In this document: piece by piece, positions 3,215 to 27,819 of the stretch
Layout: every line of letters starts with the position of its first letter
Numbering within the stretch: position 1 is the stretch's first letter
Source: Croceivirga sp.
GTDB taxonomy: Bacteria > Bacteroidota > Bacteroidia > Flavobacteriales > Flavobacteriaceae
NCBI GenBank assembly: GCA_028284935.1
Contig: JANQQQ010000016.1
Location: 150,730-214,729, forward strand
DNA length: 64,000 nucleotides
Reading direction: 5' to 3'
Notes under the pieces: model-generated
Told to the model about the DNA's origin: nothing
The model's input: the letters and a program-made list of their open reading frames with translations, nothing else
The model's database searches: none
Position numbers and translations under genes: made by a program

Positions 3215-3404
3215 ATAAGCCAGAGATTAGGGATGTCAATATAGATACCGAATTTCATCAAATCATATCAGTAGGTAAGGTACTTACAAAATCTCTAAAC
3301 GTGACAAATGACACAAAAACTAAGAGAAATGGAAAAAAATTGTTAAAATATCGCTTATTGTATTAAAAATTACATTATTCATTGTGCTTTTAAAGCTCAG
3401 GTTA
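3215..3404. other. AT-rich intergenic region, no gene seen
   Basis: This AT-rich stretch separates the divergently oriented DUF2721 gene from a candidate small RNA. I see no open frame with a ribosome-binding site and no tRNA cloverleaf. It presumably holds the promoter of the DUF2721 gene and possibly that of the downstream RNA, but no convincing TTG/TAnnTTTG pair could be picked out. Confidence 0.4.
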
Positions 3405-3497
3405 AAAAGCCGTTCTCATTAAAGAACGTTAGCGAAGCAATAACCAACTATTGCAAAAAGTGAGACTCAAAGGAGCCCATAGGCTCCTTTTTTATTT
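3405..3497 (+). ncRNA. Candidate structured small RNA ending in an intrinsic terminator
   Basis: Three consecutive perfect hairpins are packed in about 80 bases with no coding frame: 3411-3416 with 3423-3428 (CGTTCT/AGAACG), 3437-3442 with 3449-3454 (GCAATA/TATTGC, loop ACCAAC), and a 9-bp terminator stem at 3469-3490 followed by a T-rich tract. The upstream limit is arbitrary because no promoter was identified. The order of stem, stem, terminator is what a short trans-acting or housekeeping RNA would show. The 12-mer CAATAACCAACT that spans the middle hairpin recurs at 3909-3920, just before the terminator of the next gene. The alternative is a structured 3' end of an unseen transcript. Confidence 0.4.
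3469..3496 (+). terminator. Rho-independent terminator
   Basis: A perfect 9-bp stem (AAAGGAGCC with GGCTCCTTT) and a 4-base loop CATA are followed directly by a T-rich tail. No protein gene lies immediately upstream on this strand, which is the main reason for proposing a small RNA here. Confidence 0.8.
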
Positions 3498-3624
3498 TTT
3501 AAGATTTTATATTCGAAACAATATTCGCCATTAATTGATAATGTCATTATAATAATTGTTAATAATTGCGAAATTCACTAAAAAATTGTTTATTTATTGC
3601 CAAGTAACCATAAAACTATAAAAA

Positions 3625-14820: not shown

Positions 14821-15066
14821 TGGTCAAAAGCAATATACCATTCCAGTAAGGGCAAAGATTGAAAACAATTTTTAGATGGGCCATTCCTTTTTCGCAGGGA
14901 TAAGGTAAGGGTTATTTGTTGGTTGACAACAAAAGGCCGGCATTTCTGAATTTAGGGAGTATGGTATTTCCCAGATTAAAATTTAACAATCATACATTGG
15001 AGAAAATCAAATGAAGTGCATCAACTGGTTTACATTTTCACGCTTTATGGTTATTTTTCGGGTGCT

Positions 15067-16161
15067 ATGAAAAATCTTTCCATATTTCTAATAGGGTGCT
15101 TCTGCTTAATAGGCAACTCCCAGCAGGATACCTCTTTGATAGAAAGTAGGCCCGTAATAATTGGATTGAGTTTTGATTATGGTTTCCTGCTTAGGCATTC
15201 ACAATCCCTCAGAGAGATAGATGATGCTTACCCTTTTGGTATTCGGTTGGATGCCAGTAAACTCCTCCTTACGAAAAAGTCATGGGAGTTTTGCAATTGC
15301 TTTCCCAGAGTAGGGGTAAGCCTTGCCTATTGGAATTGGGATAATGCTGAGGTTTTGGGAAGCGGTATAGTACCTTTGGCCTATGTAGAGCCCTACTTTC
15401 TTACACAAAAACGAACCAATGTATTTGTTAGGATGGGTTTGGGCGGGGCCTTTTTGACCAAACCTTTTGATGAAGTGACCAATCCTAAAAACCAATCCTA
15501 TAGTACCACGCTTGCCTTTTCCATTGTTCTGGGTGCCGGTCTTAATTATAGGCTAACGGACAAACTTAACCTAAGACTTGCGGCTAAGTATAGCCATGTT
15601 TCCAATGGTGGTGTCCGTTCTCCCAACAAGGGCCTTAATTTACCTACCGTAAGTGTGGGGGTCAATACGAGCTTGGAGCCAATCAGCTATCCCAACCTGC
15701 CTAAAATTTCAAAACGGGAACCACCAAAACAAAAAACAAGACTTTCTTTGGTACATTTCTCGGGATTGAGCAATGCTACGGTAGGGGAGCGGGACAGATT
15801 CTATGTTTTTGGACTTTCTGGCAATTACAGCAGGTGGATTGGAGGTAGGAGCGCCCTTAGCTTTGGAACGGAATGGGCCCTTGACTTTTCCCGAAGGGAG
15901 CAAATAAGGCTGGAAGGGGCTGATGCGGCGTTTCCCCAAGGTGCTCTATTGGTAGGGCACGAGTTTTGGTTGGGTAGAATCACCTTTAGCCAACAGTTGG
16001 GAATCTACTACTTCAATCAATTCCGAACCACGGACGACGTGTATCAACGTTATGGACTAACCTATAGTTTTAATCAGAAAATCTTTGCCGGATTTAATCT
16101 GAAGGCCCATCGCCATGTTGCGGACTTTTTTGATTTGAGGATTGGCTATCGCTTTAAATAA
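15067..16161 (+). CDS. PagL-like lipid A 3-O-deacylase / acyloxyacyl hydrolase domain protein
   Basis: A 364-residue outer-membrane protein with a signal peptide (MKNLSIFLIGCFCLIGNSQQ). The first half resembles PagL: an eight-stranded barrel with the motif KYSHVSNGG, where H and S would be the catalytic pair, followed by NKGLN. PagL removes an ester-linked acyl chain from lipid A in the outer membrane. The second half is another set of beta strands of similar size, making the protein about twice the length of classical PagL. I chose the ATG at 15067 because it begins the signal peptide; an in-frame start at 15016 would add 17 residues before it. Confidence 0.7.
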   Translation: MKNLSIFLIGCFCLIGNSQQDTSLIESRPVIIGLSFDYGFLLRHSQSLREIDDAYPFGIRLDASKLLLTKKSWEFCNCFPRVGVSLAYWNWDNAEVLGSGIVPLAYVEPYFLTQKRTNVFVRMGLGGAFLTKPFDEVTNPKNQSYSTTLAFSIVLGAGLNYRLTDKLNLRLAAKYSHVSNGGVRSPNKGLNLPTVSVGVNTSLEPISYPNLPKISKREPPKQKTRLSLVHFSGLSNATVGERDRFYVFGLSGNYSRWIGGRSALSFGTEWALDFSRREQIRLEGADAAFPQGALLVGHEFWLGRITFSQQLGIYYFNQFRTTDDVYQRYGLTYSFNQKIFAGFNLKAHRHVADFFDLRIGYRFK

Positions 16162-16574
16162 TTCATCTGGACCACAAAGGCGGTTTTCAGCAACCCCAAA
16201 TAAGTTTTAGAACATCGATTTGGAATAAAATACTATCTACTGTGATACAAAGAATTGGGGGAAATGTCGAAAATCAAGGCCAAAAACCTGTCTTTATGAT
16301 TTGTTAATACCAAAATAGTTGTTAAAAAGCATCGTTTTTGTATATTGAAGCCAGCATCAGTTCATCGATTTTATGTAACATTTTGTCGATTTTGTGCCAT
16401 TCATCGAAAAATCAAAAAATACTGGTACAGCATCAAAATAAAGAGGAATGGAGAATCGTTGCATTTTGAAAGAACCAAACCCTGATTTTAAACGTAACTG
16501 AACTATTATATTAAACTAATTAACGCATTACTCGGTCCCCAAATCGAAACATGCGCCCAAACCGTTCCAAGCCT
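16162..16574. other. Intergenic region, no gene seen
   Basis: This AT-rich stretch of about 410 bp has no convincing open frame. It holds a possible promoter (TTG at 16319 and TATATTGA at 16341, spacing 19) and a set of short near-repeats of TCGATTTT and CATCGA between about 16360 and 16410. These could be regulator sites or a long 5' leader for the following small gene; neither can be decided by eye. Confidence 0.35.
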
Positions 16575-16847
16575 ATGAAAAATACCATTACCCCCAATGG
16601 CAACAAACTCTCTGGAATCTTCTGTAACTTCTTCGGCCATCATTTTGTGGTATCCAAGAAAGTGACCCAGCACATAAAAGAGTACAAATGTGTGCACTGT
16701 GGTAAGCAGGTAACCACAGATGAACGAGGTAAGCTTTCGCCCCTTACTCCAAAGTTGAAGGAAATCAATAGAACATTGGAAGACATGTACCAACGTAGAA
16801 ATAGGGTTCGGGCACGAGGAAAATCAGCAAGAAAGCAAGTAGCTTAA
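16575..16847 (+). CDS. Small zinc-ribbon protein, DUF1660-like, about 90 aa
   Basis: The protein contains FCNFFGHHFVVSKKV and, 20 residues later, YKCVHCGKQVT; the C/H and C-x-x-C pairs could bind one zinc ion. The layout resembles DUF1660, a family first described from prophages, but the match is loose. The C-terminal third is a basic coiled or disordered segment (RRNRVRARGKSARK), which suits nucleic-acid or ribosome binding. ATG at 16575 is preferred; ATG at 16551 would add eight residues. Its stop codon lies only 2 bp from the end of the convergent thiL fragment. Confidence 0.6.
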   Translation: MKNTITPNGNKLSGIFCNFFGHHFVVSKKVTQHIKEYKCVHCGKQVTTDERGKLSPLTPKLKEINRTLEDMYQRRNRVRARGKSARKQVA

Positions 16848-16849
16848 GT

Positions 16850-16989
16850 TTAGTCAAAAGAATTCCAGCCTTGGGCTGTCAACGGAATTTTAGAGCCATT
16901 CCTGGAGATTAAGTGTGCACCCCTATTTTTATGCGTCATGTGCCCCAAGACCGTAAGATTTGGATTGCCCTTGGTTTTCGGGAATTTTT
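16850..16989 (-). pseudogene. thiL: Detached 3' fragment of thiL
   Basis: On the minus strand this stretch encodes about 46 residues that match the C-terminal end of the intact ThiL further on (shared blocks KGNPNLTV, GHMTHKN, GAHLISRNGSKIPL, AQGWNSF) and ends in TAA at 16850-16852. The remaining 300 residues of thiL are absent; instead the frame meets the end of the ABC ATPase gene. About nine base differences in 131 bp separate it from the intact copy, several of them changing residues (V to L, E to R, I to T), and the last residues differ. The frame is still open, so it is either young or came from a related strain. Confidence 0.85.
16856..16986. repeat. Direct repeat copy 1 (thiL 3' end)
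   Basis: This 131-bp segment is about 93% identical by eye (nine mismatches, no gaps) to 23360-23490, in the same orientation. The match stops abruptly within a T run at about 16986-16992, next to the stop codon of the ABC ATPase gene. Together the two copies bracket about 6.4 kb. Confidence 0.9.
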
Positions 16990-17682
16990 TTAACCCACCT
17001 TTTTCATCTGAAGCCTTCCATTTTCCAAAAGATACAATTCTTTTGCAGCTTGAATTACAGCTTCATCATGACTGGCAAAAACGAATGACACGCCATGTTC
17101 CTTATTCAATTGTTTCATTAGGGAAACGATGTTCTGTGAATTTTTTCGATCCAGATTAGCGGTGGGTTCGTCCGCAAAAACAACCTTTGGCTTAGAGACT
17201 ATGGCCCTTGCAATAGCAACACGTTGTTGCTCCCCTCCTGATAATTCGGAAGGTTTGTTGTGCAAACGGTGTCCAAGCCCAACTAGGTTTAATATTTCTG
17301 TTGATTTTTCCTGAATCTCCTTTTTGGTAAATGAATGAAGCCCCATAGGTAGTTCCACATTTTCCATTGCGGTCAACACAGGAATTAGATTAAACGACTG
17401 AAATACAAAACCAAAATTGTTCTTTCTGGTTTTTGCAAGTTCCCTTTTGTTGTTGTAATCGATTTTTCTGTTGTTCAACAAATAATTTCCTTGGTCGGGA
17501 GTATCCAAACAGCCCAATACGTTGAGCAAAGTTGATTTTCCTGAACCGGATGGACCGGCAATGACACTGAAGCAACCGTCATGGAATGAGGTGTCAATAT
17601 CCTTCAATACCTGAAATTTGGTCTTGCCAAGGGTGTATGATTTTGAGATTTCCGTCAATTCTAATAAAGGGTATGTTTTCAT
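16990..17682 (-). CDS. LolD/MacB-type ABC transporter ATPase
   Basis: A 230-residue nucleotide-binding subunit. Walker A GPSGSGKST, Q loop FVFQSFNLIP, signature LSGGEQQR, Walker B VVFADEPTANLD and the switch histidine FASHDE are all present. The QSFNLIP and DEPTANLD forms are those of the LolD/MacB/FtsE class, which drives FtsX-type permeases instead of classical importers. It is the last gene of a five-gene minus-strand cassette, and is separated from the barrel gene by 15 bp. Its stop codon lies right at the junction with the thiL fragment. It should power the two permeases encoded upstream. Confidence 0.92.
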   Translation of the reverse strand: MKTYPLLELTEISKSYTLGKTKFQVLKDIDTSFHDGCFSVIAGPSGSGKSTLLNVLGCLDTPDQGNYLLNNRKIDYNNKRELAKTRKNNFGFVFQSFNLIPVLTAMENVELPMGLHSFTKKEIQEKSTEILNLVGLGHRLHNKPSELSGGEQQRVAIARAIVSKPKVVFADEPTANLDRKNSQNIVSLMKQLNKEHGVSFVFASHDEAVIQAAKELYLLENGRLQMKKVG

Positions 17683-17697
17683 GGTTTATGTTTTTTG

Positions 17698-18831
17698 TTA
17701 TAGGAAGAATGATAGTATTACCCTTCCCTGAATATCATAGAGGGATAGGGAGTTGCTGTATATAAATGGATTGATTTCAAGTTTTATGTTTTCACCACTA
17801 TAAATGAAGCCAGGGGAGCATAGCAATTGGTGGGTTATGGGGTCATAGAAAAATGACGCGTTTACATTGTACTTGGAGTAAGCATCTGTATAACCAATTT
17901 GTGAAAAAAAGCTATGTTGTCCCATACTGATGGGGTCATACAATTCAAGATTTAGGGGGAGAAATGACCTAAAGTTGGCAATACTGTTTTGTGTATTGAA
18001 GTCACTTCGGTATCTATATTCCAAAATTAGTATGGTTCGTATGAAGGTGTTGAGCCAACTGCCCAAAACGAACTCTGACCGTGCATTTTCCCAACTATTT
18101 TTTGGGGGTATGGGTGTTACGCTTCCGGAATTATCTACCAAGCCAGTATTTGAAAAATTTCGTATAAGTCCTTCTCCATAAAAAGTGAAATTGTCAGTGC
18201 CAAGACTAAAATCACAGGCAAATTGTTGCCTTCCATCCCCTAGAAAGGCATAATTGAATGAATAGTCCAATGATTTTATCGTTGAACTTGCCTTAAGGGC
18301 GAACGTTGAGACATTCAATTTTTCGGATGGGGAGAAAAGTAGATTTACCGTGAGACGAGGGAAAATGTACTCCAAATTGGTAAGGGAAACCCCTTCCAAT
18401 CGGTTATTGAGCCGAAAAGGATCCTTCTGGAGAAACGGATTGGAAGGATTCCAAACGGTTCCAGTTCCCCAGTTGATTCGCTCCTTACCAAAAGTAAGGT
18501 AGAAAGCATCTGAAATTCCGTAACGAACATATAGCTCATTAAAGGCAAAATCAATGTTTTCGGATATGGGGTTAACGAATACCCTTGGTTCTACCTGTAC
18601 CTTTAATCTGTCTTTTGTAAGGGTTCCAATGGGGAAAAACCGGTTGATGGTCTCCAATTCCGATAGGTCTAAAATATTTTCGGGGTTTACCGGGGTATCT
18701 TCTGAAACCAAATTATAGGTGAACACATTTTCATTGATGATGCGATATGAAAATTCATTCTGTGGGTACAACAGCGTGCTTGAAAGAAACCAATGCAAAA
18801 ACAGCCCTATATGTTTGGTACAGATTTTCAT
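17698..18831 (-). CDS. Outer membrane beta-barrel protein of the ABC cassette, 377 aa
   Basis: A signal peptide (ending LLYPQ near residue 24) precedes a long run of amphipathic beta strands. The segment FGKERINWGTGTVWNPSNPF is the kind of motif found in DUF1302/Wzi-like outer-membrane barrels that accompany LolA-like proteins and exporter genes. The protein should lie in the outer membrane and may be the exit or acceptor component of the transport system encoded around it. No lipobox or T9SS domain is seen. The gene starts 15 bp after the LolA-like gene ends. Confidence 0.7.
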   Translation of the reverse strand: MKICTKHIGLFLHWFLSSTLLYPQNEFSYRIINENVFTYNLVSEDTPVNPENILDLSELETINRFFPIGTLTKDRLKVQVEPRVFVNPISENIDFAFNELYVRYGISDAFYLTFGKERINWGTGTVWNPSNPFLQKDPFRLNNRLEGVSLTNLEYIFPRLTVNLLFSPSEKLNVSTFALKASSTIKSLDYSFNYAFLGDGRQQFACDFSLGTDNFTFYGEGLIRNFSNTGLVDNSGSVTPIPPKNSWENARSEFVLGSWLNTFIRTILILEYRYRSDFNTQNSIANFRSFLPLNLELYDPISMGQHSFFSQIGYTDAYSKYNVNASFFYDPITHQLLCSPGFIYSGENIKLEINPFIYSNSLSLYDIQGRVILSFFL

Positions 18832-18846
18832 TTTAATAGATTGACA

Positions 18847-19572
18847 TTACTTGCTCAATAGCGCTGTAGTAAAGAAAATGGCTTGTTTTGATGTTCCTTT
18901 TGTTATTTCGGAATACTCAAAAACGGTTTTTGAATCCTTGTTCAGTTCATCCAAAATCGTCAGCTTGGTAGGGAAGGAAACTTCACCTAAATCTGTATAA
19001 TGGTCGTAATTTATGGTCTTTATGACCTTGCCGGAAAGGCTCAGCATCTCTTGCACCATCGGAAGTTGGGTTTGTTTGTCCAAATAAAAATTCACTTGGT
19101 TATATGCGGTTTTTAAGTCTTTTGCCTTTAAGCGCAGGATCAAATACTTTTCGGTTGTTTCAACAGGACCTAAGATGTTATAATCTTCAACCAATGAAAT
19201 CCTAAGAATGTCCCTATTGGAAGCATCCCCTCCCAAAAAGGCCTGTTTGTAAGGTATTTTTATCAACTTGCTGGAACGCGGCAAGAACATCCATAAGTTG
19301 TCACCATCGTTTAGAATTCTTCTGTCTCTTTCAACACTTGGTTCTAGAATGGACAATCGTAATTTTTTGCCCTTTCTAAAGACTTTCATCTTATAAGTAC
19401 GCTTTACTTTTTCTTTTCGAAATATTTGCATCTGCATGTTAAATTCCATGTCAAGGTCAAAAAGGTCTTTGTCCAATTTTGCCAATACTTCCGTTGGGTT
19501 TGATTGGCCGTTGACTATATATGAACCTACAAGCAGTACAAGTGCGAAAATTGGATAATGTAATTTTTTCAT
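18847..19572 (-). CDS. LolA-like outer membrane lipoprotein-sorting protein (COG2834 type)
   Basis: A 241-residue periplasmic protein with signal peptide MKKLHYPIFALVLLVGSYIVNGQ. The mature part has the LolA/LolB fold pattern seen in COG2834 proteins: KMKVFRKGKKLRLSIL, a central DGDNLWMFLPRSSKLIKIP strand pair, then VNFYLDKQTQLPMVQEML and the closing FPTKLTILDELNKDSK. In LolA this half-barrel carries acyl chains of a lipoprotein across the periplasm. I chose the ATG at 19572, which begins the signal peptide; the ATG at 19602 overlaps the permease gene. It probably shuttles a lipidated or hydrophobic cargo between the permeases and the barrel protein. Confidence 0.82.
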   Translation of the reverse strand: MKKLHYPIFALVLLVGSYIVNGQSNPTEVLAKLDKDLFDLDMEFNMQMQIFRKEKVKRTYKMKVFRKGKKLRLSILEPSVERDRRILNDGDNLWMFLPRSSKLIKIPYKQAFLGGDASNRDILRISLVEDYNILGPVETTEKYLILRLKAKDLKTAYNQVNFYLDKQTQLPMVQEMLSLSGKVIKTINYDHYTDLGEVSFPTKLTILDELNKDSKTVFEYSEITKGTSKQAIFFTTALLSK

Positions 19573-19591
19573 CGGGTTATCTTTTTTGTTT

Positions 19592-20806
19592 TTATCGATC
19601 ATATATCAGTTGAATAGGATTTGTATTTTGGATACTCCGTGTACTCCAAAGCCCTGATAGCAAAGGATAAGTAAGGCCTATGGCTAATGCGATTAAAAGG
19701 TTTGGAAAATGGAAAAAGGGTTTCAAGGTGTTACCACCAAATATTAATGTAGCCCTATCTCCTAAATAAATACCCTCCCATGAAAGGAATAGGGTCAGTC
19801 CACCAAATAGTAAGAGTCCTACTAAAGAAGCTATTGCAGCTACAATCAATGTCTCAAAAAGAAAGGAAATCCTAACATTTCTTGGTTTAAATCCAATGGC
19901 CAATAGGGTTCCAATTTCCTTTCGACGCTCAATCAGGTTATTGTGTACCACGAAACCGATTCCGAAGAATGAAATCACCTGTAAAAAGAAGACCATGCTC
20001 AAAAAGCCGTATTTGTTTGCATTGGAAATAGTCGAGGCCGTAGATGCCCTTTCTTTATACCATTCGATGTCCATGGTATCGTTAAACTCCTGTTGTAATA
20101 GATTTTTTGTCTTTGATAAGATAGTTGGTGCCGTATGCAACTGATCGGTGTCAACCAGTATGTGGGTAGGCAAAGCGGTGTTCATGAGAATTTTGGATTC
20201 TTCCATGTTCAGAAATACCATGGTGTTTGCCCATCCTGAGATATTCCTGTAAATGCCACTTATGGGATATTCGCCAAGATTTAGGCCGCCCTGTACGGTT
20301 TGTATCATAATGAAACAGAGATCGTTAACACCAACATCAAGTTTTGTTGAGACACTTTCGCTGATCAATAAACCTTCTTGCAAGCTATCCTTCGCCCTTA
20401 TTTTGTCAAATTGAAAACTTGAGAATAGGGCAGATTCCTTGGCCCAATCCACCCCCCTTAAATTGATGTCCGCGGATTGGTTGCCTGCATATAGCAGCGC
20501 CCGAGAATATAGGCGCTCCCTTATCCCTGAAACTTCTGGTAGATTATGTATACTTGCCTTAAGATCAGTTAATCTTTTTTGATGTTCATCACTCGTTTTT
20601 TTCAGCAAACTATCCGAAACCGTAATGGAAACGGCTCCCGTTTCAATCTGAATAAGATCGCCTATCATTTGGCGTTCAATTCCCCCTGAAATGGATACAA
20701 CAAGGAAGAATAGGCCCGTGGCTAAGGAAATGCTTAAACCTATCAAAAGGTTCCTGCTCCAATGTCTAGTGATGTTTCTTAATGCAACTTTTATGAATAT
20801 GCCCAT
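19592..20806 (-). CDS. FtsX-like ABC permease A
   Basis: A 404-residue permease with the MacB/LolC layout: an N-terminal transmembrane helix (residues 18-40), a large periplasmic domain of about 230 residues, then three helices (about 270-292, 317-345 and 365-385). The helix-flanking RRKEIGTLLAIGFKPRNVRISFLFETL is the FtsX-domain signature. It follows the second permease by 17 bp, so the two probably form a heterodimer as LolC and LolE do. Confidence 0.88.
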   Translation of the reverse strand: MGIFIKVALRNITRHWSRNLLIGLSISLATGLFFLVVSISGGIERQMIGDLIQIETGAVSITVSDSLLKKTSDEHQKRLTDLKASIHNLPEVSGIRERLYSRALLYAGNQSADINLRGVDWAKESALFSSFQFDKIRAKDSLQEGLLISESVSTKLDVGVNDLCFIMIQTVQGGLNLGEYPISGIYRNISGWANTMVFLNMEESKILMNTALPTHILVDTDQLHTAPTILSKTKNLLQQEFNDTMDIEWYKERASTASTISNANKYGFLSMVFFLQVISFFGIGFVVHNNLIERRKEIGTLLAIGFKPRNVRISFLFETLIVAAIASLVGLLLFGGLTLFLSWEGIYLGDRATLIFGGNTLKPFFHFPNLLIALAIGLTYPLLSGLWSTRSIQNTNPIQLIYDR

Positions 20807-20823
20807 GATGGTCTAGCTTTTTG

Positions 20824-22059
20824 TTATGCAGTGGTTCTTAATAGTGTCGTTATCTCTGAACGGAACAATTTTCTCAAGGAAACGAGAACGGCCAGATAAC
20901 AGGCCATTGCGAATAATAGCGCAACCTTAAGAATCTCTAACCAATATATTTTTGGAAAAATGGATGTACTCAGGTAGGCCGCCTGTAGCTCTTCGGAAGG
21001 GATGGGTATTCCACTCTGTAGGAACAGGTCAAAAGTCAGTTTTAAAAATACTCCTGTCAGTAAAATTCCTGATGAGATTAAAACAATGTACTCTAAAGCT
21101 ATGGTACTGATAATGGTCAAAGGTTTAAAGCCAAAGGCAAGCAACGTGCCGATTTCCTTCTTTCTGTTGTTGGTCATCATAATAATGATGTTGACCAATA
21201 TTAAGACACTGAAAACGATAAAGATTGTTTTAATGGCATGGCCCGCATTGACCCATACACTGACAATGGAATTTAACAGCGGGGCGGACTTTTCCCAATC
21301 AGCAATTTTCAAACGGGAGTTTATGCCCGAAACCTGATTTTTCAGATCATTTGCTCCTTTTTCGGTGTTCTCAAGCGCATGGTAATTGACAAGTAGCTCC
21401 ATGGCTTCATGGTCTTCAAGTCGCAAAATCTCCATTCCTTTTTTGTAATTGATAAAACCAATGGGCAAGAGAAACTGTGAAGGTCCTTTGGTTTTGAATA
21501 TTCCCGAGACACGGAGTAGATTGTCGCTCAGGTATCCATCCCGATTGTTTGCCAGAACCACCAAGGTGTCACCCACATTTGCTTCAAGTTCATCTGCGAA
21601 AGTTTCACTTAGCATAATCTGGTCCTTATTTATTGGTTGGGAGCCAGCCTTAAAATCAAGGATTGTGCTGACGCGTTGCAGATGGCTTTGCGACAATGCT
21701 TGAAAGTGAATGCCCATGCTCTCGTCACCATAGGACAGCAATCCACCAAAGCGCAACCTACGCCCGATATTTTTAATGTTCGGATTTTCCTCCAACAGTT
21801 TTGTGCTATCCTTCGAATACCATTCAAAGAGGTTTACATCAGAAAATTGTGATTCAAGAACATTGATGTTTTTTTCAGAATCGTAGATAATGTATTGACC
21901 CGATATAGCTTCCGTTATCAGTGTTCTAAGACTATTTTGAACACTGTTCTTTTGTGCGATCTGTGTGAAAATATTGAATGCGGAAACCACACTTAGGATG
22001 AAAATCAGTAAGGCCCTTGACTTTTTTCTGATGATGTTTTTGAAGGAGAGTCGTATCAT
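20824..22059 (-). CDS. FtsX-like ABC permease B
   Basis: A 411-residue permease of the same type as its neighbour: N-terminal helix at about 12-30, a periplasmic domain to about residue 270, and three C-terminal helices, with NRKKEIGTLLAFGFKPLTII as the FtsX signature. The two permeases share this signature but diverge in their periplasmic parts, as expected for unequal halves of one exporter. It is the first gene of the cassette; about 110 bp separate it from the AraC-type regulator gene upstream on the same strand. Confidence 0.88.
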   Translation of the reverse strand: MIRLSFKNIIRKKSRALLIFILSVVSAFNIFTQIAQKNSVQNSLRTLITEAISGQYIIYDSEKNINVLESQFSDVNLFEWYSKDSTKLLEENPNIKNIGRRLRFGGLLSYGDESMGIHFQALSQSHLQRVSTILDFKAGSQPINKDQIMLSETFADELEANVGDTLVVLANNRDGYLSDNLLRVSGIFKTKGPSQFLLPIGFINYKKGMEILRLEDHEAMELLVNYHALENTEKGANDLKNQVSGINSRLKIADWEKSAPLLNSIVSVWVNAGHAIKTIFIVFSVLILVNIIIMMTNNRKKEIGTLLAFGFKPLTIISTIALEYIVLISSGILLTGVFLKLTFDLFLQSGIPIPSEELQAAYLSTSIFPKIYWLEILKVALLFAMACYLAVLVSLRKLFRSEITTLLRTTA

Positions 22060-22170
22060 GGGAACGTCTTTGTTTATTGTGAGTTACCGAAGATTTAATC
22101 ACCTTGGTAATTTTTAAAACAAATCTCTGTGAAGTTGATGTCCTGTGCGACCCAACCCGTTGGCTGAAAC

Positions 22171-23313
22171 CTATTGAGCGTTTTTTCCCTTGAATGCTGA
22201 TGGGGATAGTGAGGTATACTTTTTAAAGTACCGATTAAAGGAAGATTTTGACTTAAAACCACAATCATAGGCAATTCCCAAAACAGAAAGGTGGTCGTAC
22301 TCACGAGAACTGAGCATTTTTTTTGCCTCGTTCACCCGGAACTGGTTGACAAAGTCATAAAAATTCAAATCAAAATGCTGATTGATGACCTGGGAGAGGT
22401 GGGACTGAGCAACCCCACTTCTTTCGGACAACAGGGATAAACTCAGGTTTTCGTCCAGAAATGGCTTTTCTGCTTTCATGTACTTCATAAGTTTAATTCC
22501 CAATTCATCTACCTTTTTTGGGGTGAGTCCAGATTTGGAATAGGGTGCTTTCTTGGAGGCGGATGTATTCAATTCCGAACCAGGGGGGGGCTGGGTACCG
22601 CTCCCGGTAAAAATGGCGGTTTGGCGAAAACCATAAAAACCACAGGCAATTAACATTAAGCTCAACGTTATCCCGACTAGGGCGAAAGCATTTTGAAGAG
22701 GGAAGAGTTTGAACTGAGTAGCGCCAAAAATTAAAAAAGAAGCCAAAACAAACAGCACGAAATACGAATATACCACATACTCCAACCATCTAAGATTGAT
22801 CTTTTCATCAAAAGAGAAAAGCTCGGCGATGTTTTTCCTATGGCCCTTGAGCAAAAACAAATTCCAAATGCAATACACCAAGCCTGATAGCGCCAGTGGT
22901 ATTGCATAATAATTCATCCATTGTGGAGAATGGTCAAAAACCTCAAAGTGACCGTTCACGGCGGTCAAGGAAACCTTATCCTTATTCTGAAGGATAATAA
23001 AGAAAATTACATAAAGGGGATACACCCCAAGGTGAAAACCTATGGTCTTCCCCGATACTCGGTGTCCAGTGAGGGATAAGACATAGAGAAAAAGCAGAGG
23101 CGCTCCCAACATGGGCAATCCAAAAGCAAAAATGGCCCAAATCCCATGCAGTTCAAAATGATAAATGGTGATTTCGTTAAATGCGATTTGAAGTAAGGTC
23201 ACCCCAATCCATCCCAGAAAAAAGAAATCTCCTTGTTCCTTCCCTTTCTTAAAAAACAGGAGAAGAAAAATGAAGACACCAATGCCCAGACCGGCATTTA
23301 AGACAACTTCCAT
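22171..23313 (-). CDS. Membrane-anchored AraC-family transcriptional regulator
   Basis: A 380-residue protein with about seven hydrophobic helices in its first 230 residues and an AraC/XylS helix-turn-helix pair in the last 110 (LSLSLLSERSGVAQSHLSQVI and VLGIAYDCGFKSKSSFNRYF, ending SPSAFKGK). This 7TM-AraC layout is common in Bacteroidota and points to sensing at the membrane with direct control of DNA. Its position upstream of the transport cassette on the same strand makes that cassette the obvious target, although the target itself is inferred. Its start lies 31 bp from the end of thiL. Confidence 0.82.
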   Translation of the reverse strand: MEVVLNAGLGIGVFIFLLLFFKKGKEQGDFFFLGWIGVTLLQIAFNEITIYHFELHGIWAIFAFGLPMLGAPLLFLYVLSLTGHRVSGKTIGFHLGVYPLYVIFFIILQNKDKVSLTAVNGHFEVFDHSPQWMNYYAIPLALSGLVYCIWNLFLLKGHRKNIAELFSFDEKINLRWLEYVVYSYFVLFVLASFLIFGATQFKLFPLQNAFALVGITLSLMLIACGFYGFRQTAIFTGSGTQPPPGSELNTSASKKAPYSKSGLTPKKVDELGIKLMKYMKAEKPFLDENLSLSLLSERSGVAQSHLSQVINQHFDLNFYDFVNQFRVNEAKKMLSSREYDHLSVLGIAYDCGFKSKSSFNRYFKKYTSLSPSAFKGKNAQ

Positions 23314-23344
23314 GGAGAAGGGATTAAAACTACAAGCTATGAAT

Positions 23345-24397
23345 TTATTCGGTTCCGTTAAAAGAATTCCAGCCTTGTGCTATCAGCGGAATTTTAGAGC
23401 CATTTCTGGAGATTAAGTGTGCACCCTCATTTTTATGCGTCATGTGCCCCACGACCGTAAGATTTGGATTGCCTTTGATTTTCGGGAATTCTTTTTGGTT
23501 TATGGTGAACAGTAATTCGTAATCCTCCCCGCCACTCAAGGCAACCATGGTGCTGTCCATTTTAAACTCTTCTGAAGTTGAAATAACGGTTGGATCCAAC
23601 GGAATTTTATCTTCATATAAATTGCAACCCACATCACTTTGTTCGCATAAGTGCAAAATTTCGGAAGAAAGTCCATCGCTGATGTCAATCATACTAGTGG
23701 GGTGCACCTCAAGTTTCTCCAATAATTCAACAATATCCTTTCGGGCTTCTGGTTTGAGTTGCCGTTCCACAATATAACTGTACGGTTCCAAATCCGGTTG
23801 GTTGTTGGGGTCTACTTTGAATACTTGCTTTTCACGCTCCAACACTTGCAATCCCAAATAAGCGCCTCCCAAATCTCCGGTAACAACGAGCAAGTCATTT
23901 TCTTTGGCGCCAGTGCGCATGACCAATTTTTCATCGGTTACTTGTCCAATGGCCGTAATACTAACGAGCATTCCTTTTGTGGAGGATGTGGTATCACCAC
24001 CAACCATGTCAACGCCATATATTTTGCAGGCCAAGGCCACCCCGGAATAGAATTCCTCAAGGGCTTCTAGCGGGAAACGATTGGACACTGCAATGGAAAC
24101 CGTTATTTGGGTAGCCATTGCATTCATGGCATAGACGTCAGAAAGGTTGACAATGACCGATTTGTAGCCCAAATGCTTCAAGGGCATGTAACTTAAATCA
24201 AAATGTACGCCCTCAATCAAAAGATCGGTGGAAATCACGGTTTTTTTAGCTGAAAGGTCCAATACCGCGGCATCATCTCCAATTCCTTTTAGGGAGGAGG
24301 GATGGGTGAGCTCAAAATCCTTGGTGAGATGTTTTATAAGTCCAAACTCCCCCAATTGTTCCAATGGTGTGCGAGATGCATTTTTATCTTCAAGCAT
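23345..24397 (-). CDS. thiL: Thiamine-monophosphate kinase
   Basis: A 350-residue enzyme that phosphorylates thiamine monophosphate to thiamine diphosphate, the last step of cofactor synthesis. It has the PurM-like ATP-binding fold: GIGDDAAVLDL near residue 40, VVSTDLLIEGVHFD-like block, VNLSDVYAMNA, and MVGGDTTSS, then TGDLGGAYLGL and MIDISDGLSSE, all family motifs. The last 131 bp are duplicated 6.4 kb away. An insertion at its end appears to have kept this copy complete; length is normal. Confidence 0.93.
   Translation of the reverse strand: MLEDKNASRTPLEQLGEFGLIKHLTKDFELTHPSSLKGIGDDAAVLDLSAKKTVISTDLLIEGVHFDLSYMPLKHLGYKSVIVNLSDVYAMNAMATQITVSIAVSNRFPLEALEEFYSGVALACKIYGVDMVGGDTTSSTKGMLVSITAIGQVTDEKLVMRTGAKENDLLVVTGDLGGAYLGLQVLEREKQVFKVDPNNQPDLEPYSYIVERQLKPEARKDIVELLEKLEVHPTSMIDISDGLSSEILHLCEQSDVGCNLYEDKIPLDPTVISTSEEFKMDSTMVALSGGEDYELLFTINQKEFPKIKGNPNLTVVGHMTHKNEGAHLISRNGSKIPLIAQGWNSFNGTE
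23360..23490. repeat. Direct repeat copy 2 (thiL 3' end, in the intact gene)
   Basis: The partner of 16856-16986. It lies inside the coding sequence of intact thiL and covers its final 43 codons approximately. No integrase or transposase gene lies between the two copies, so the mechanism is not evident. Confidence 0.9.
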
Positions 24398-24455
24398 TCG
24401 GCAAATGTAATTGAAATCATTAAAGTTGTATCTTTACTATGGTTACAATTTTGCT

Positions 24456-26381
24456 ATGAAAAAATACCTAATAGGTACAATAGTTTTATTCTTTTTTTCA
24501 TGTAGTGGCGATGACGATAATGGCGATTCAAATAATGGAATGGAAGCGCAAGTCGTCGTGTCCTTTTCCCAAAGCACAGGGTTTGATGGTGAGGCAAATG
24601 GAGGTAGTCTTCCCATGTTGTTGTTGTCCGGGACGGTAGTGCAAACTTCGTCCGTTACGGTCTCTTTGAACACCGATAACCTGAGTGCTTCGGAGGGAAC
24701 GGACTTTACATTTGAATCTGTTCAGATAATCAACATTCCTATAGGGTCATATGATGGTACATTGAATACTGCTCTACCCATAGCGGGATTAATGGTGGTT
24801 GATGATATTGAGGAAGAAAACAATGAGTCTTTTGAACTTACTCTTTCCAATCCTACAGGAGATGTTATTTTAGGAACTCAAATTACAACCGCTTATACTA
24901 TAATTGATGATGATAGTCTTAGCATTTCCTTTTCACAACAGAACGTCTCTGGACGTGAAAGTGTGGGGGATAATTTGCCCGTAATTCTTGTGTTCGGTAC
25001 AGTTTTGGAAGATATGTCCATTTCTGTTGAAGCAGGTGATATGGGAACTGCGGTCTTAGGGGAAGATTATACATTTTCTTCACCACAAATCATTGTGGTA
25101 CCTGCGGGAACCTACGATGGTTCGTTACAGACTGCACTATCCATTCCCGGGTTGTCCATTATAGATGATGAGATAGTGGAACCTTCGGAATTCTTTGAGT
25201 TGAAACTAATAGCGGATGATAGTGAGGTATTGGCCATTTCCTCGACAAGATATGAGATTAGGGGTCTTATTCCCTGTGAAAATGGAACCGCAGATAGCTA
25301 TCCCTGTAATGGTTATGATTTGATTGGCCGTATAGGCCTAGCGGATTTCGAAGCAGATCGCGGTAATGATATTTGGGGCTGGACGGACGATAATTCCGGG
25401 AGGGAATTCGCTCTCGTAGGTTTGGATAATGGTACTGCGTTTGTAGAAGTTACCGGGGATGAACCCATTTACCTAGGGAAACTCCCAACGGCGACAGGAT
25501 CGAGTACTTGGCGGGATGTAAAGGTATATGATGATCATGCCTATATTGTTTCCGAAGCCTCTGGACATGGAATGCAGGTCTTCAATTTAAACCGTCTACT
25601 TTCTGTATCCAATCCGCCACAAAACTTTTCGGATAGTGGCAGGTATACCAATATTGGTAATGCCCACAACGTGGTAATCAATGAAAGCACTGCTTTTGCC
25701 TATCCTGTGGGTACCGCGCGAGGTGATACCTTCAGCGGGGGTGTTCATTTTGTGGATATCCAAAACCCAAATTCACCTGTGGGGGTCGGGGGCTATGGGG
25801 ATAATGGTTATACCCATGATGCCCAAGTGGTGACCTATAATGGTCCAGATACGGATTACTTGGGGCGTGAGATATTTATTGGTTCCAATGAAAACCAAAT
25901 TGCCATTGTGGACATCACCGATAAATCGAATCCAGTTGAAATCTCCACTTTGAATTATTCACAATTGGCGTACACCCACCAAGGGTGGTTCACGGAAGAC
26001 CAGCGCTATTTTTTGTTGGGAGATGAATTGGATGAAGTTGAATTTGGATTTAATTCCAGAACGTTGGTTTTTGATTTTACGGATTTGGATAGTCCTACCT
26101 TACACACCACGTATCTGGGCCCAACAGGGGCCATTGACCATAATGGTTATGTGATGGGAGAGGAGTTTTATTTGGCCAATTATACGGCAGGGATAAGAGT
26201 ATTGGATATTTCGGACATAGCAAATAGGAATATAACCGAAGTTGGTTTTTTTGACAGCTTCCCGGGAAGTAATGTTGCGAGTTTCGATGGGGTTTGGAGC
26301 GTTTATCCCTATTTGGCAAGTGGGAAAATATTGGTGAGCGATATCAATTCAGGCTTGTTTGTCATTCAAAAATCGGAATAG
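24456..26381 (+). CDS. Choice-of-anchor B family lipoprotein with two Calx-beta-like domains
   Basis: A 641-residue surface or periplasmic protein. The lipobox FFFSCSGDDD marks a lipoprotein with the acidic stretch that can act as an export signal in Bacteroidota. Two Calx-beta-like domains follow, each running from VSFSQ/ISFSQ to an IIDDD-type end. From about residue 285 to the C-terminus lies the choice-of-anchor B propeller, with WGWTDDNSGREFALVGLDNGTAF-like, TWRDVKVYDDHAYIVSEASGHGMQVF-like, HNVVINE and THQGWFTEDQRYFLLGDE segments. The preferred start is the ATG at 24456, which begins the lipoprotein signal. Confidence 0.85.
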   Translation: MKKYLIGTIVLFFFSCSGDDDNGDSNNGMEAQVVVSFSQSTGFDGEANGGSLPMLLLSGTVVQTSSVTVSLNTDNLSASEGTDFTFESVQIINIPIGSYDGTLNTALPIAGLMVVDDIEEENNESFELTLSNPTGDVILGTQITTAYTIIDDDSLSISFSQQNVSGRESVGDNLPVILVFGTVLEDMSISVEAGDMGTAVLGEDYTFSSPQIIVVPAGTYDGSLQTALSIPGLSIIDDEIVEPSEFFELKLIADDSEVLAISSTRYEIRGLIPCENGTADSYPCNGYDLIGRIGLADFEADRGNDIWGWTDDNSGREFALVGLDNGTAFVEVTGDEPIYLGKLPTATGSSTWRDVKVYDDHAYIVSEASGHGMQVFNLNRLLSVSNPPQNFSDSGRYTNIGNAHNVVINESTAFAYPVGTARGDTFSGGVHFVDIQNPNSPVGVGGYGDNGYTHDAQVVTYNGPDTDYLGREIFIGSNENQIAIVDITDKSNPVEISTLNYSQLAYTHQGWFTEDQRYFLLGDELDEVEFGFNSRTLVFDFTDLDSPTLHTTYLGPTGAIDHNGYVMGEEFYLANYTAGIRVLDISDIANRNITEVGFFDSFPGSNVASFDGVWSVYPYLASGKILVSDINSGLFVIQKSE

Positions 26382-26478: not shown

Positions 26479-27819
26479 ATGAAAAAGACATTTTTTTTAT
26501 TGGGATTGTGGCTGTGCTTTTCTTGCTCGGATGATTCCTTTAAAGTGGAAGGAAACAATGAGGTGCCCAACGATTTTCAAAATGTGGCATGGACAGCCAA
26601 TTTTGGGGGTACGGGTGATGACTCGGCACGTTCCCTAATTCAAACCAATGACGGGGGCTATGCTGTTTTGGGAATGACAAATAGCACGGATGGAGACTTG
26701 ACCTCAAAGGCCTTACCTGTCAATGATTATTGGTTGGTGAAATTGAATGCCGATGGAAGTCTGGACTGGCAAAAAACCTATGGGGGTAGCCAAGACGACC
26801 AAGGACAACAAGTAATACAAACTTCCGATGGAGGGTATGCCATAACGGGGTATGCCATGAGCGACGACGGTGATGGCAGCAACAATGAAGGGTTTCATGA
26901 CAATTGGATTTTGAGGTTGGATGTTTCCGGGAATATACTTTGGGAAAAAAGCTTTGGTTTTTCCGGTCATGACCATTCCTATGACTTGGTAGAGACTGCT
27001 GATGGTGGTTTTTTCTTCTCCGGATTTTTGGATGTTACTTCCTCCAATGGAGAAGGGAGCACGGACAAAAGTTCCCTAACAGCACACGGCGTAGGAGAGT
27101 TTTGGGGCACTAAAATTGATGGTGACGGTAATTTGGAATGGCGTAAGTTTTTTGGAGGTACCAATAATGATCGTTCTTTCGGAGTAGTGAATGCGCATGA
27201 TGGAGGATATGTTTTAACTGGATCCTCCGAAAGTGATGATTTTGACGTCACGGAACCCAAAGGCAGTTATGACTTTTGGGCGGTCAAGGTGGATAAAAAC
27301 GGAAATTTTGTTTGGGAAAGCTCCTTTGGAGGATCTGGTATTGACCAAGCACAGGATATCTTGGCGACCACTGATGGCGGTTATGTGATCGTAGGCAACA
27401 CCTTTAGTTCGGATACCCAAGTAACCAAAAACCAAGGGCAATCTGATGTTTGGTTGATTAAGATTGACGCTAATGGCCAACTGGTCTGGCAAAAAAGCTT
27501 TGGAGGTTCCGGTTTTGATGCGGCCCATAGTGTTCGCCCAACCGCAGATGGCGGGTTTTTGGTCTGTGGAAATTCCAAAAGCTTTGATGGGGATGTTGCT
27601 GAGAACTTTGGCGAAAATGATATCTGGATTTTCAAAACGGATGCTTCTGGAACCATGCAATGGGAAGAATCCTTTGGAGGGTTGAGCTTGGACTTTGGCT
27701 ATGACGCCATTGAAACCACTGAGGGAAATATCGTTTTAATTGGTGAAACCGCCAGTCAAGATTTCCCAGATGTCATCTCCAAAGGAGGGATCGATATGGT
27801 GGTTTTGAAAATCAGGTAG
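26479..27819 (+). CDS. Lipoprotein with seven propeller-like repeats, 446 aa
   Basis: After a lipoprotein signal (MKKTFFLLGLWLCFSCSDDS) the whole protein consists of seven repeats of about 55-60 residues. Each begins W-x-x-x-F-G-G-x-x-x-D, then T-x-DGGY-x-x-x-G, and ends D-x-W-x-x-K-x-D-x-x-G. Seven such units would close a seven-bladed beta-propeller on the cell surface or in the periplasm. I do not recognise an enzyme motif. It follows the choice-of-anchor B gene by about 100 bp on the same strand and is likely part of the same surface gene group. Confidence 0.75.
   Translation: MKKTFFLLGLWLCFSCSDDSFKVEGNNEVPNDFQNVAWTANFGGTGDDSARSLIQTNDGGYAVLGMTNSTDGDLTSKALPVNDYWLVKLNADGSLDWQKTYGGSQDDQGQQVIQTSDGGYAITGYAMSDDGDGSNNEGFHDNWILRLDVSGNILWEKSFGFSGHDHSYDLVETADGGFFFSGFLDVTSSNGEGSTDKSSLTAHGVGEFWGTKIDGDGNLEWRKFFGGTNNDRSFGVVNAHDGGYVLTGSSESDDFDVTEPKGSYDFWAVKVDKNGNFVWESSFGGSGIDQAQDILATTDGGYVIVGNTFSSDTQVTKNQGQSDVWLIKIDANGQLVWQKSFGGSGFDAAHSVRPTADGGFLVCGNSKSFDGDVAENFGENDIWIFKTDASGTMQWEESFGGLSLDFGYDAIETTEGNIVLIGETASQDFPDVISKGGIDMVVLKIR

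Follow-up and report, generated by a model that had tools for sequence, protein, structure and literature searches.

The stretch of DNA analysed here (the window) comprises 64,000 nucleotides (nt) of Croceivirga sp. (GenBank assembly GCA_028284935.1, contig JANQQQ010000016.1, positions 150,730 to 214,729). It includes the junction between thiL and a convergent zinc-ribbon gene, where six cargo genes lie between two copies of the thiL 3' coding tail and where the strand opposite to thiL carries a hairpin element of about 90 nt. The thiL gene, encoding thiamine-phosphate kinase, was identified at 23345..24397 on the minus strand (TIGR01379), and the zinc-ribbon gene (98 amino acids, no Pfam or NCBIfam family) at 16551..16847 on the plus strand, where the hairpin follows it. 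The cargo is on the minus strand throughout. It consists of an AraC-type regulator (22171..23313), two FtsX-type permeases (20824..22059 and 19592..20806), a LolA-like protein (PF17131; 18847..19602), a 377-amino-acid protein without a family which is possibly an outer-membrane barrel (17698..18831), and an ATP-binding cassette (ABC) transporter ATPase resembling LolD/MacB (16990..17682). The stop codon of this last gene falls within the run of A residues that borders the detached thiL tail. As noted in the preliminary description of this DNA, none of the six genes encodes an integrase.

The two copies of the tail form a direct repeat. Alignment of 16856-16986 with 23360-23490 gave 131 bp with nine mismatches and no gaps, at a spacing of 6504 bp, exactly as had been counted by eye. 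The repeat could be extended to 144 bp with 13 mismatches (91% identity), from 16848..16991 in the detached copy and from 23352..23495 in the intact gene, and the 13 mismatches are spread over all three thiL codon positions. The match breaks down at the T-run 16986-16992 adjoining the stop of the ATPase gene, as described earlier. In the whole genome (4.23 Mb, 38 contigs) exactly two matches were found at E<=0.001, with E values of 3.3e-70 and 9.5e-53. The detached copy is not truncated: its thiL-like frame is open to a TAA at 16850-16852, and this codon is two bases from the stop of the zinc-ribbon gene, again in agreement with the earlier account. The detached copy looks like a complete gene end, placed where thiL ends in genomes with an empty site. 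The suggested comparison of G+C content inside and outside the block was run and proved uninformative, the block (0.37-0.41 in 1-kb windows) lying within the range of its flanks (0.31-0.45). At the end of the detached copy, on the minus strand (16866-16878), there is a 5-bp stem followed by T-rich sequence, at which transcription of the cargo could stop; it comes from a terminator scan which returned 6 sites against a shuffle mean of 8.8.

Within the detached copy the hairpin element occupies 16896..16988 on the zinc-ribbon (plus) strand, and a run of seven T residues (16986..16992) stands directly 3' of it. A weaker form lies opposite thiL, inside the coding tail (23400..23492, plus strand), where the T-run is interrupted. 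The region 16886-17005 folds at -35.5 kcal/mol with a z-score of -5.35, compared with a z-score of -1.85 for the corresponding region of the thiL copy (23390-23509). When only the 93-nt elements were folded the energies were -33.8 and -26.6 kcal/mol, respectively, and the seven T residues are unbroken only in the detached copy. Random substitution of the observed number of bases in the tails of loci L005 and L006 and of the window's thiL reached the energy of the detached copy in 29, 18 and 4 of 1000 trials, respectively. With a predicted fold more stable than that of the thiL copy, and an energy so rarely matched by random substitution, the detached copy shows no decay of the kind expected of a scar.

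An element of about 90 nt was found between thiL and the zinc-ribbon gene in 50 cargo-free relatives (duplicates removed), on the zinc-ribbon strand a long hairpin which ends in a T-run; T-runs are also present in the detached copies of relatives. Two covariance models were constructed. The first, R1, was built only from 20 cassette-free intergenic elements of the Flagellimonas clade. It nevertheless matched the detached copy of the window with 45.3 bits (E 2.5e-7) and the thiL tails of the window (32.3 bits), L005 (40.0 bits), L006 (41.1 bits) and L099 (35.7 bits). It also matched the thiL tail of L052, the scores of the last four loci spanning 26-41 bits. The case for homology of element and tail is therefore independent of the window's own repeat. 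Within the genus R1 matched at the locus in 7 of 11 genomes; the remaining matches were 37-nt hairpins, and two genomes had none at all. The second model, R2, was built from 41 detached copies, including those of three cassette genomes and hence the one in the window, which scored 74.4 bits. The window's thiL tail, which is in the alignment of neither model, scored 60.9 bits. At E<=0.01 R2 matched 65 of 397 sampled genomes of the family (42 of 237 genera), a few of the weakest matches being hairpins of 31-40 nt that are probably due to chance. Intermediate forms in L003, L007 and L059 bridge the element and the thiL tail, and the models give good support to the view that the detached elements are homologous to that tail. 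The idea that a detached copy tracks the thiL of its own genome was dropped, as scores against the own tail ranked no better than those against other genomes' tails in most cases. Searches of Rfam with seven loci at the gathering cut-off returned only two tRNAs, and with positions 15000-26000 of the window at E up to 5 four matches, all unrelated. No title among the literature matches listed names this element or a thiL terminator.

In the 41 detached copies both sides of the stem have changed at 16 of 26 pairs, and 89.0% of the alignment cells pair. This alignment was fitted to the model and leans towards the structure, and slid and shuffled controls were made for that reason: none of 500 shuffles reached any of the five measures used, and slid versions paired at 25-59%. 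RNAalifold on a plain MAFFT alignment, which had failed to line up one-base shifts in the 5' stem, gave only nine pairs, one of them with changes on both sides; alignment to the model was used in its place. Pairing reaches 89.0% of cells when the copies are read as the zinc-ribbon strand and 78.1% when they are read as the thiL strand, owing to 151 G-U against 37 A-C cells, which favours the zinc-ribbon strand as the RNA. The corresponding count for copies inside thiL (83.3% and 76.0%) was not used, its 31 rows including weak matches on the other strand. The apical loop GCCCCA is kept in 43 of 43 aligned elements, even though detached copies have no coding duty. The compensatory changes, the better pairing of the zinc-ribbon strand and the T-run point to a 3'-end RNA of the zinc-ribbon gene. 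As in intrinsic terminators, a stable RNA hairpin (z -5.35, with covariation) has a T-run directly after the stem, and on this structural prediction the hairpin is most likely the terminator of the zinc-ribbon transcript.

The linkage of the element was determined by reading the loci of 61 of the 64 R2-matching genomes other than that of the window. In 60 of these 61 genomes, and in 60 of the 62 places read, the element is located 15-94 nt 3' of a zinc-ribbon gene and on the same strand. One exception is the thiL-borne copy of genome G316, whose detached copy does follow the zinc-ribbon gene. The other (L175; G104:C8:55123-55236) is a 37-bit match with neither gene in the fetched stretch and thiL on another contig. 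In G090 thiL is 357 kb away and in G298 it is on another contig, and in both the element is still with the zinc-ribbon gene. As it follows that gene even where thiL is distant, it belongs to the 3' end of the zinc-ribbon gene. The Flagellimonas clade keeps the element although no locus compared there has cargo.

In many genera the sole copy of the element lies inside the thiL coding tail. The strand opposite to thiL was folded and compared with 200 synonymous shuffles per genome, over all loci except four duplicates (L097, L100, L101 and L102), three loci with stop-to-stop gaps negative by 65-205 bases (L009, L013 and L063), loci with partial thiL or without a zinc-ribbon match, and L150, in which the motif was not found; the class averages drop six further duplicates. 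The mean z was -2.03 for the 26 genomes with the element inside thiL (14 at or below -2), +0.80 for 66 genomes with a detached element and no cargo (none at or below -2), and -0.14 for 16 cargo genomes (two at or below -2). An unselected contrast of 43 genomes with inside or abutting arrangement against 23 detached ones outside the Flagellimonas clade gave p 1.2e-7, kinship being ignored. When about nine windows along the gene were compared, the tail had the most negative value in 18 of the 27 inside genomes examined but never in the 25 detached ones (hand-picked for spread from the 66), the other windows averaging -0.2 in both.

The protein end behaves in the same way. The motifs KEF/KKF and SRN occur in 20 and 21 of the 26 inside genomes, in 4 and 3 of the 66 detached ones and in 5 and 4 of the 16 with cargo; neither occurs in the 17 genomes in which the genes abut without a clear R2 match. 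From these sequences the thiL tail appears free to change once a detached copy has arisen. The thiL tails of the window, L006 and L099 (z -1.03, -2.55 and -2.17) are still more like those of inside genomes, in line with a younger separation. By a loose test the thiL-like frame is open in only 13 of 41 detached copies. In one locus (L170, genome G221) two copies of the element (3243-3335 and 3416-3508) form a cargo-free tandem 173 bp apart, one in the thiL tail and one just after it.

The history of the cassette was investigated in 80 thiL loci from named genomes and in 11 genomes of the genus. The loci of relatives identify thiL, the zinc-ribbon gene and a brnQ-type carrier gene as old neighbours, which bears out the earlier suggestion that the zinc-ribbon gene was the old convergent neighbour of thiL, and the empty sites which had been predicted exist, many relatives having thiL and zinc-ribbon stops which abut or overlap. 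The same cassette occupies the same place in L006 (genome G009) and L099 (genome G006), with the thiL tail repeated in both. The 22 bp after the thiL stop are identical in the window and L006, and in all three loci the last cargo gene stops within the A-run at the copy edge. The cassette proteins of the window and L006 are 80-86% identical, compared with 84% for thiL, 74% for brnQ and 71% for the zinc-ribbon protein. The divergence of the cassette being about that of its flanking genes, the insertion is older than the split of the window, L006 and L099, and these identities rule out a recent insertion in the lineage of the window itself. The preliminary description had proposed a recent insertion and had named as decisive against it the presence of the cassette in all close relatives. 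Several relatives were found to lack it; the proposal fails on the cargo common to L006 and L099 at ordinary divergence. Cargo does separate thiL from a duplicate of its tail, as described. The view of that second copy as a passive by-product is not supported, given the conserved hairpin at the same junction in dozens of cassette-free genomes and its linkage to the zinc-ribbon gene.

Among the relatives without the cassette, L005 is cargo-free with overlapping stops; in L003, L004 and L098 its place is taken by 106-119 bp with a worn copy. A search for cassette remnants in the spacers of 85-119 bp of L003, L004, L098 and L007 gave nothing convincing. One of 12 whole-cassette comparisons exceeded its shuffles (L098 with L006, 53 against a maximum of 45), and the two sister genomes did not repeat it; the related spacers of L003, L004 and L098 have in common a match of 15-18 bp near cassette position 3313 (E 0.04-0.54). 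Genomes of the L003 type may once have carried a cassette, the sole basis for which is the shared thiL ending (TGNE or PGNE). The identities of the tail copies did not discriminate between clean loss of cargo and original absence in L005. Across the family (a sample in which the genus is named only by G000, G002 and G010, the carriers G006 and G009 probably being outside it) permease searches at E<=1e-20 matched 4 of 396 other genomes and, in the own genome, a paralogue on contig C21, with identities of 24-27% throughout. The 377-amino-acid protein had weak matches in 15 other genomes (E 2.7e-7 to 0.001). The paralogue (L133; G000:C21:117434-118627), a second permease 25% identical to that of the window, possibly belongs to a paralogous exporter cassette, and permeases of its kind were found in G105, G146, G307 and G377. 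Elsewhere in the window, at 26724-27681, a 64-nt unit occurs four times within one open reading frame, the last three spaced 174 bp, and these are probably ordinary internal protein repeats.

Three kinds of cargo were identified at this junction. An AraC regulator with a protein of about 217 amino acids, membrane-bound in appearance and with only a sub-threshold match to Pfam, is present in five genomes (G226, G385, G316, G295 and G036), which are those with same-site homologues of the window's regulator beside a different partner gene. An alpha/beta hydrolase, one of which was put to Pfam, is present in eight (G387, G231, G198, G404, G245, G011, G396 and G193), and an AraC regulator with the exporter in the window, L006 and L099. 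Such varying cargo between the same core genes is one feature of a homologous recombination hotspot. The two tails of G295 are 97.3% alike over 150 bp, each being 83-85% like that of cargo-free G085 of the same genus, and by these identities G295 is apparently either a recent gain or a recent conversion. For G316 the figure is 78% over 129 bp. Eleven further cargo genomes were compared, and in none did the best tail alignment exceed 46 bp; the separations there are therefore old and exchange has probably ceased. Identity among the AraC proteins declines roughly in step with that of the neighbouring genes, which makes common descent followed by repeated losses no less possible than repeated transfer. 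The Fitch minimum on a single FastTree tree (138 tips) was 16 changes for detachment and 11 for cargo type, counts which mix gains and losses and carry no direction. By analogy with other such sites, homologous recombination between the tail copies is a plausible route for the entry and exit of cargo.

Given the conserved structure, the favoured strand, the linkage to the zinc-ribbon gene, the repeated detachment and the several kinds of cargo observed here, we consider it probable (roughly 0.65) that the terminal 130 bp or so of thiL have two jobs, and that cargo enters by way of two copies of them. On one strand they encode the end of the protein; on the other they form the hairpin of about 90 nt, a putative terminator which would end the zinc-ribbon transcript. 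An insertion between the two genes must preserve both jobs, and survivors would therefore carry two copies, one completing thiL and the other staying with the zinc-ribbon gene. In the window the AraC regulator and the five-gene ABC exporter lie between two such copies. The copy beside the zinc-ribbon gene keeps the hairpin and has an unbroken T-run; the thiL copy would be freed to drift. As long as the copies are alike, recombination between them could excise the cargo precisely, and new cargo could arrive on DNA that carries a thiL tail.

Several observations weigh against this dual role. The hairpin is not among the sites returned by the terminator scan mentioned above, which admits only loops of 3-8 nt and so excludes it, and whose 6 sites fall below the shuffle mean. 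A length of 90 nt exceeds what an intrinsic terminator needs, and termination does not account for the GCCCCA loop. In copies within thiL a Phe codon (GAATTCTTTTT) usually interrupts the T-run. The 17 genomes with abutting genes and no clear R2 match (one of which, L095, has a weak match of 25.1 bits) have a mean z of only -0.51, with two at or below -2. The inside class was chosen with R2, so its z is partly circular, and the sense strand folds well there too (mean z -1.55). In plain alignments of the element with its own thiL tail the best of 500 shuffles was beaten in only 14 of 50 genomes; with the other 36 no better than shuffles, it is the model and the intermediate forms that support homology for the older elements. 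Finally, most cargo genomes outside the clade of the window have lost the DNA-level similarity of their two tails, which speaks against ongoing exchange between them.

The loop in particular leaves room for other functions. Explained by neither coding nor termination, it may have a binding role, and the hairpin could then be mainly a regulatory 3' untranslated region or small RNA, a putative site to which the zinc-ribbon protein, some other protein or a partner RNA binds, and only secondarily a terminator. The invariance of GCCCCA in all 43 elements and the covarying stem of about 90 nt suit this alternative, which we regard as possible but rather doubtful; no partner was identified, and pairing with thiL mRNA is not maintained in the 36 of 50 elements that are no more like their own thiL tail than shuffles. 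In a wider form, offered tentatively, the element would be a new structured RNA of the Flavobacteriaceae, antisense in the end of thiL and constraining thiL residues. It would be more than a terminator, for example a putative autoregulatory site of the zinc-ribbon protein acting through GCCCCA, and its repeated escape by duplication of the tail would open the junction to new genes.

If a recent recombination had brought the cassette and left a functionless second thiL end, empty sites would be seen among close relatives, as in L005, and the near-identical tails of G295 indicate that fresh duplication or conversion does occur. Such a scar is nonetheless improbable here: the element is conserved as a hairpin at the same junction in dozens of cargo-free genomes, with a thiL-like frame open in only 13 of 41 detached copies, the window's detached copy folds better than its thiL copy to an energy seldom reached by random substitution, and the cassette predates the split from L006 and L099. 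The attC palindrome offers a parallel for a hairpin that acts as an attachment site. Three kinds of cargo at one junction, with at least 11 cargo changes by the Fitch count on one tree, would fit a DNA recombination site through which cargo is exchanged. We consider this very unlikely, since the G-U pairs favour one RNA strand, the element is retained in cargo-free loci of the Flagellimonas clade, and no recombinase was found among the six cargo genes of the window, nor in two proteins of other cargo which were put to Pfam. The assemblies are drafts, which might raise the suspicion of an artefact; the locus lies inside a 394-kb contig, and the same arrangement in the separate genomes G009 and G006 refutes this and makes its probability negligible.

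Of interest, then, is an element antisense to thiL that has repeatedly escaped from the gene; neither a recent insertion nor a passive scar is supported. At this junction protein and RNA functions overlap on opposite strands and have repeatedly been split into two copies, which amounts to a natural experiment. It could be used to measure, at the KEF and SRN codons, how far the RNA restrained the protein, and to measure how the RNA opens or closes a site to gene insertion. The element is a candidate RNA family for Rfam, and it advises caution, as gene fragments beside insertions may persist for the sake of a neighbour and not as scars.

Genomic islands can enter the 3' ends of genes and rebuild them. 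The locus resembles such islands in having an intact gene and a displaced gene end, and differs in that the cargo of the window has no integrase and the repeat is imperfect, about 130 bp long and has a structural role. Intrinsic, bidirectional terminators are described as overrepresented at convergent junctions in Zymomonas (PMC7566282), and the hairpin with a T-run after a gene at a convergent junction is common to both. Here, however, the hairpin lies inside the opposing coding tail in many genera, is about 90 nt long, has an invariant loop and has a second copy flanking cargo. Terminators inside neighbouring genes were found when Caulobacter genes were rewritten (PMC8144410), and there too a termination signal reaches into the coding sequence of a neighbour; conservation, covariation and duplication are described for the present element, and the passages of that paper on the subject contain none of these. 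Integrase-free hotspots (PMC5635113) likewise have changing cargo between conserved core genes; at the thiL junction the tail of the flanking gene itself borders the cargo at either end, and the gene on the far side is served by one of its copies. In the excludon and in overlapping convergent transcripts (PMC7154746) the 3' ends of facing genes share sequence, as they do here, where what is shared is a dedicated, conserved structure.

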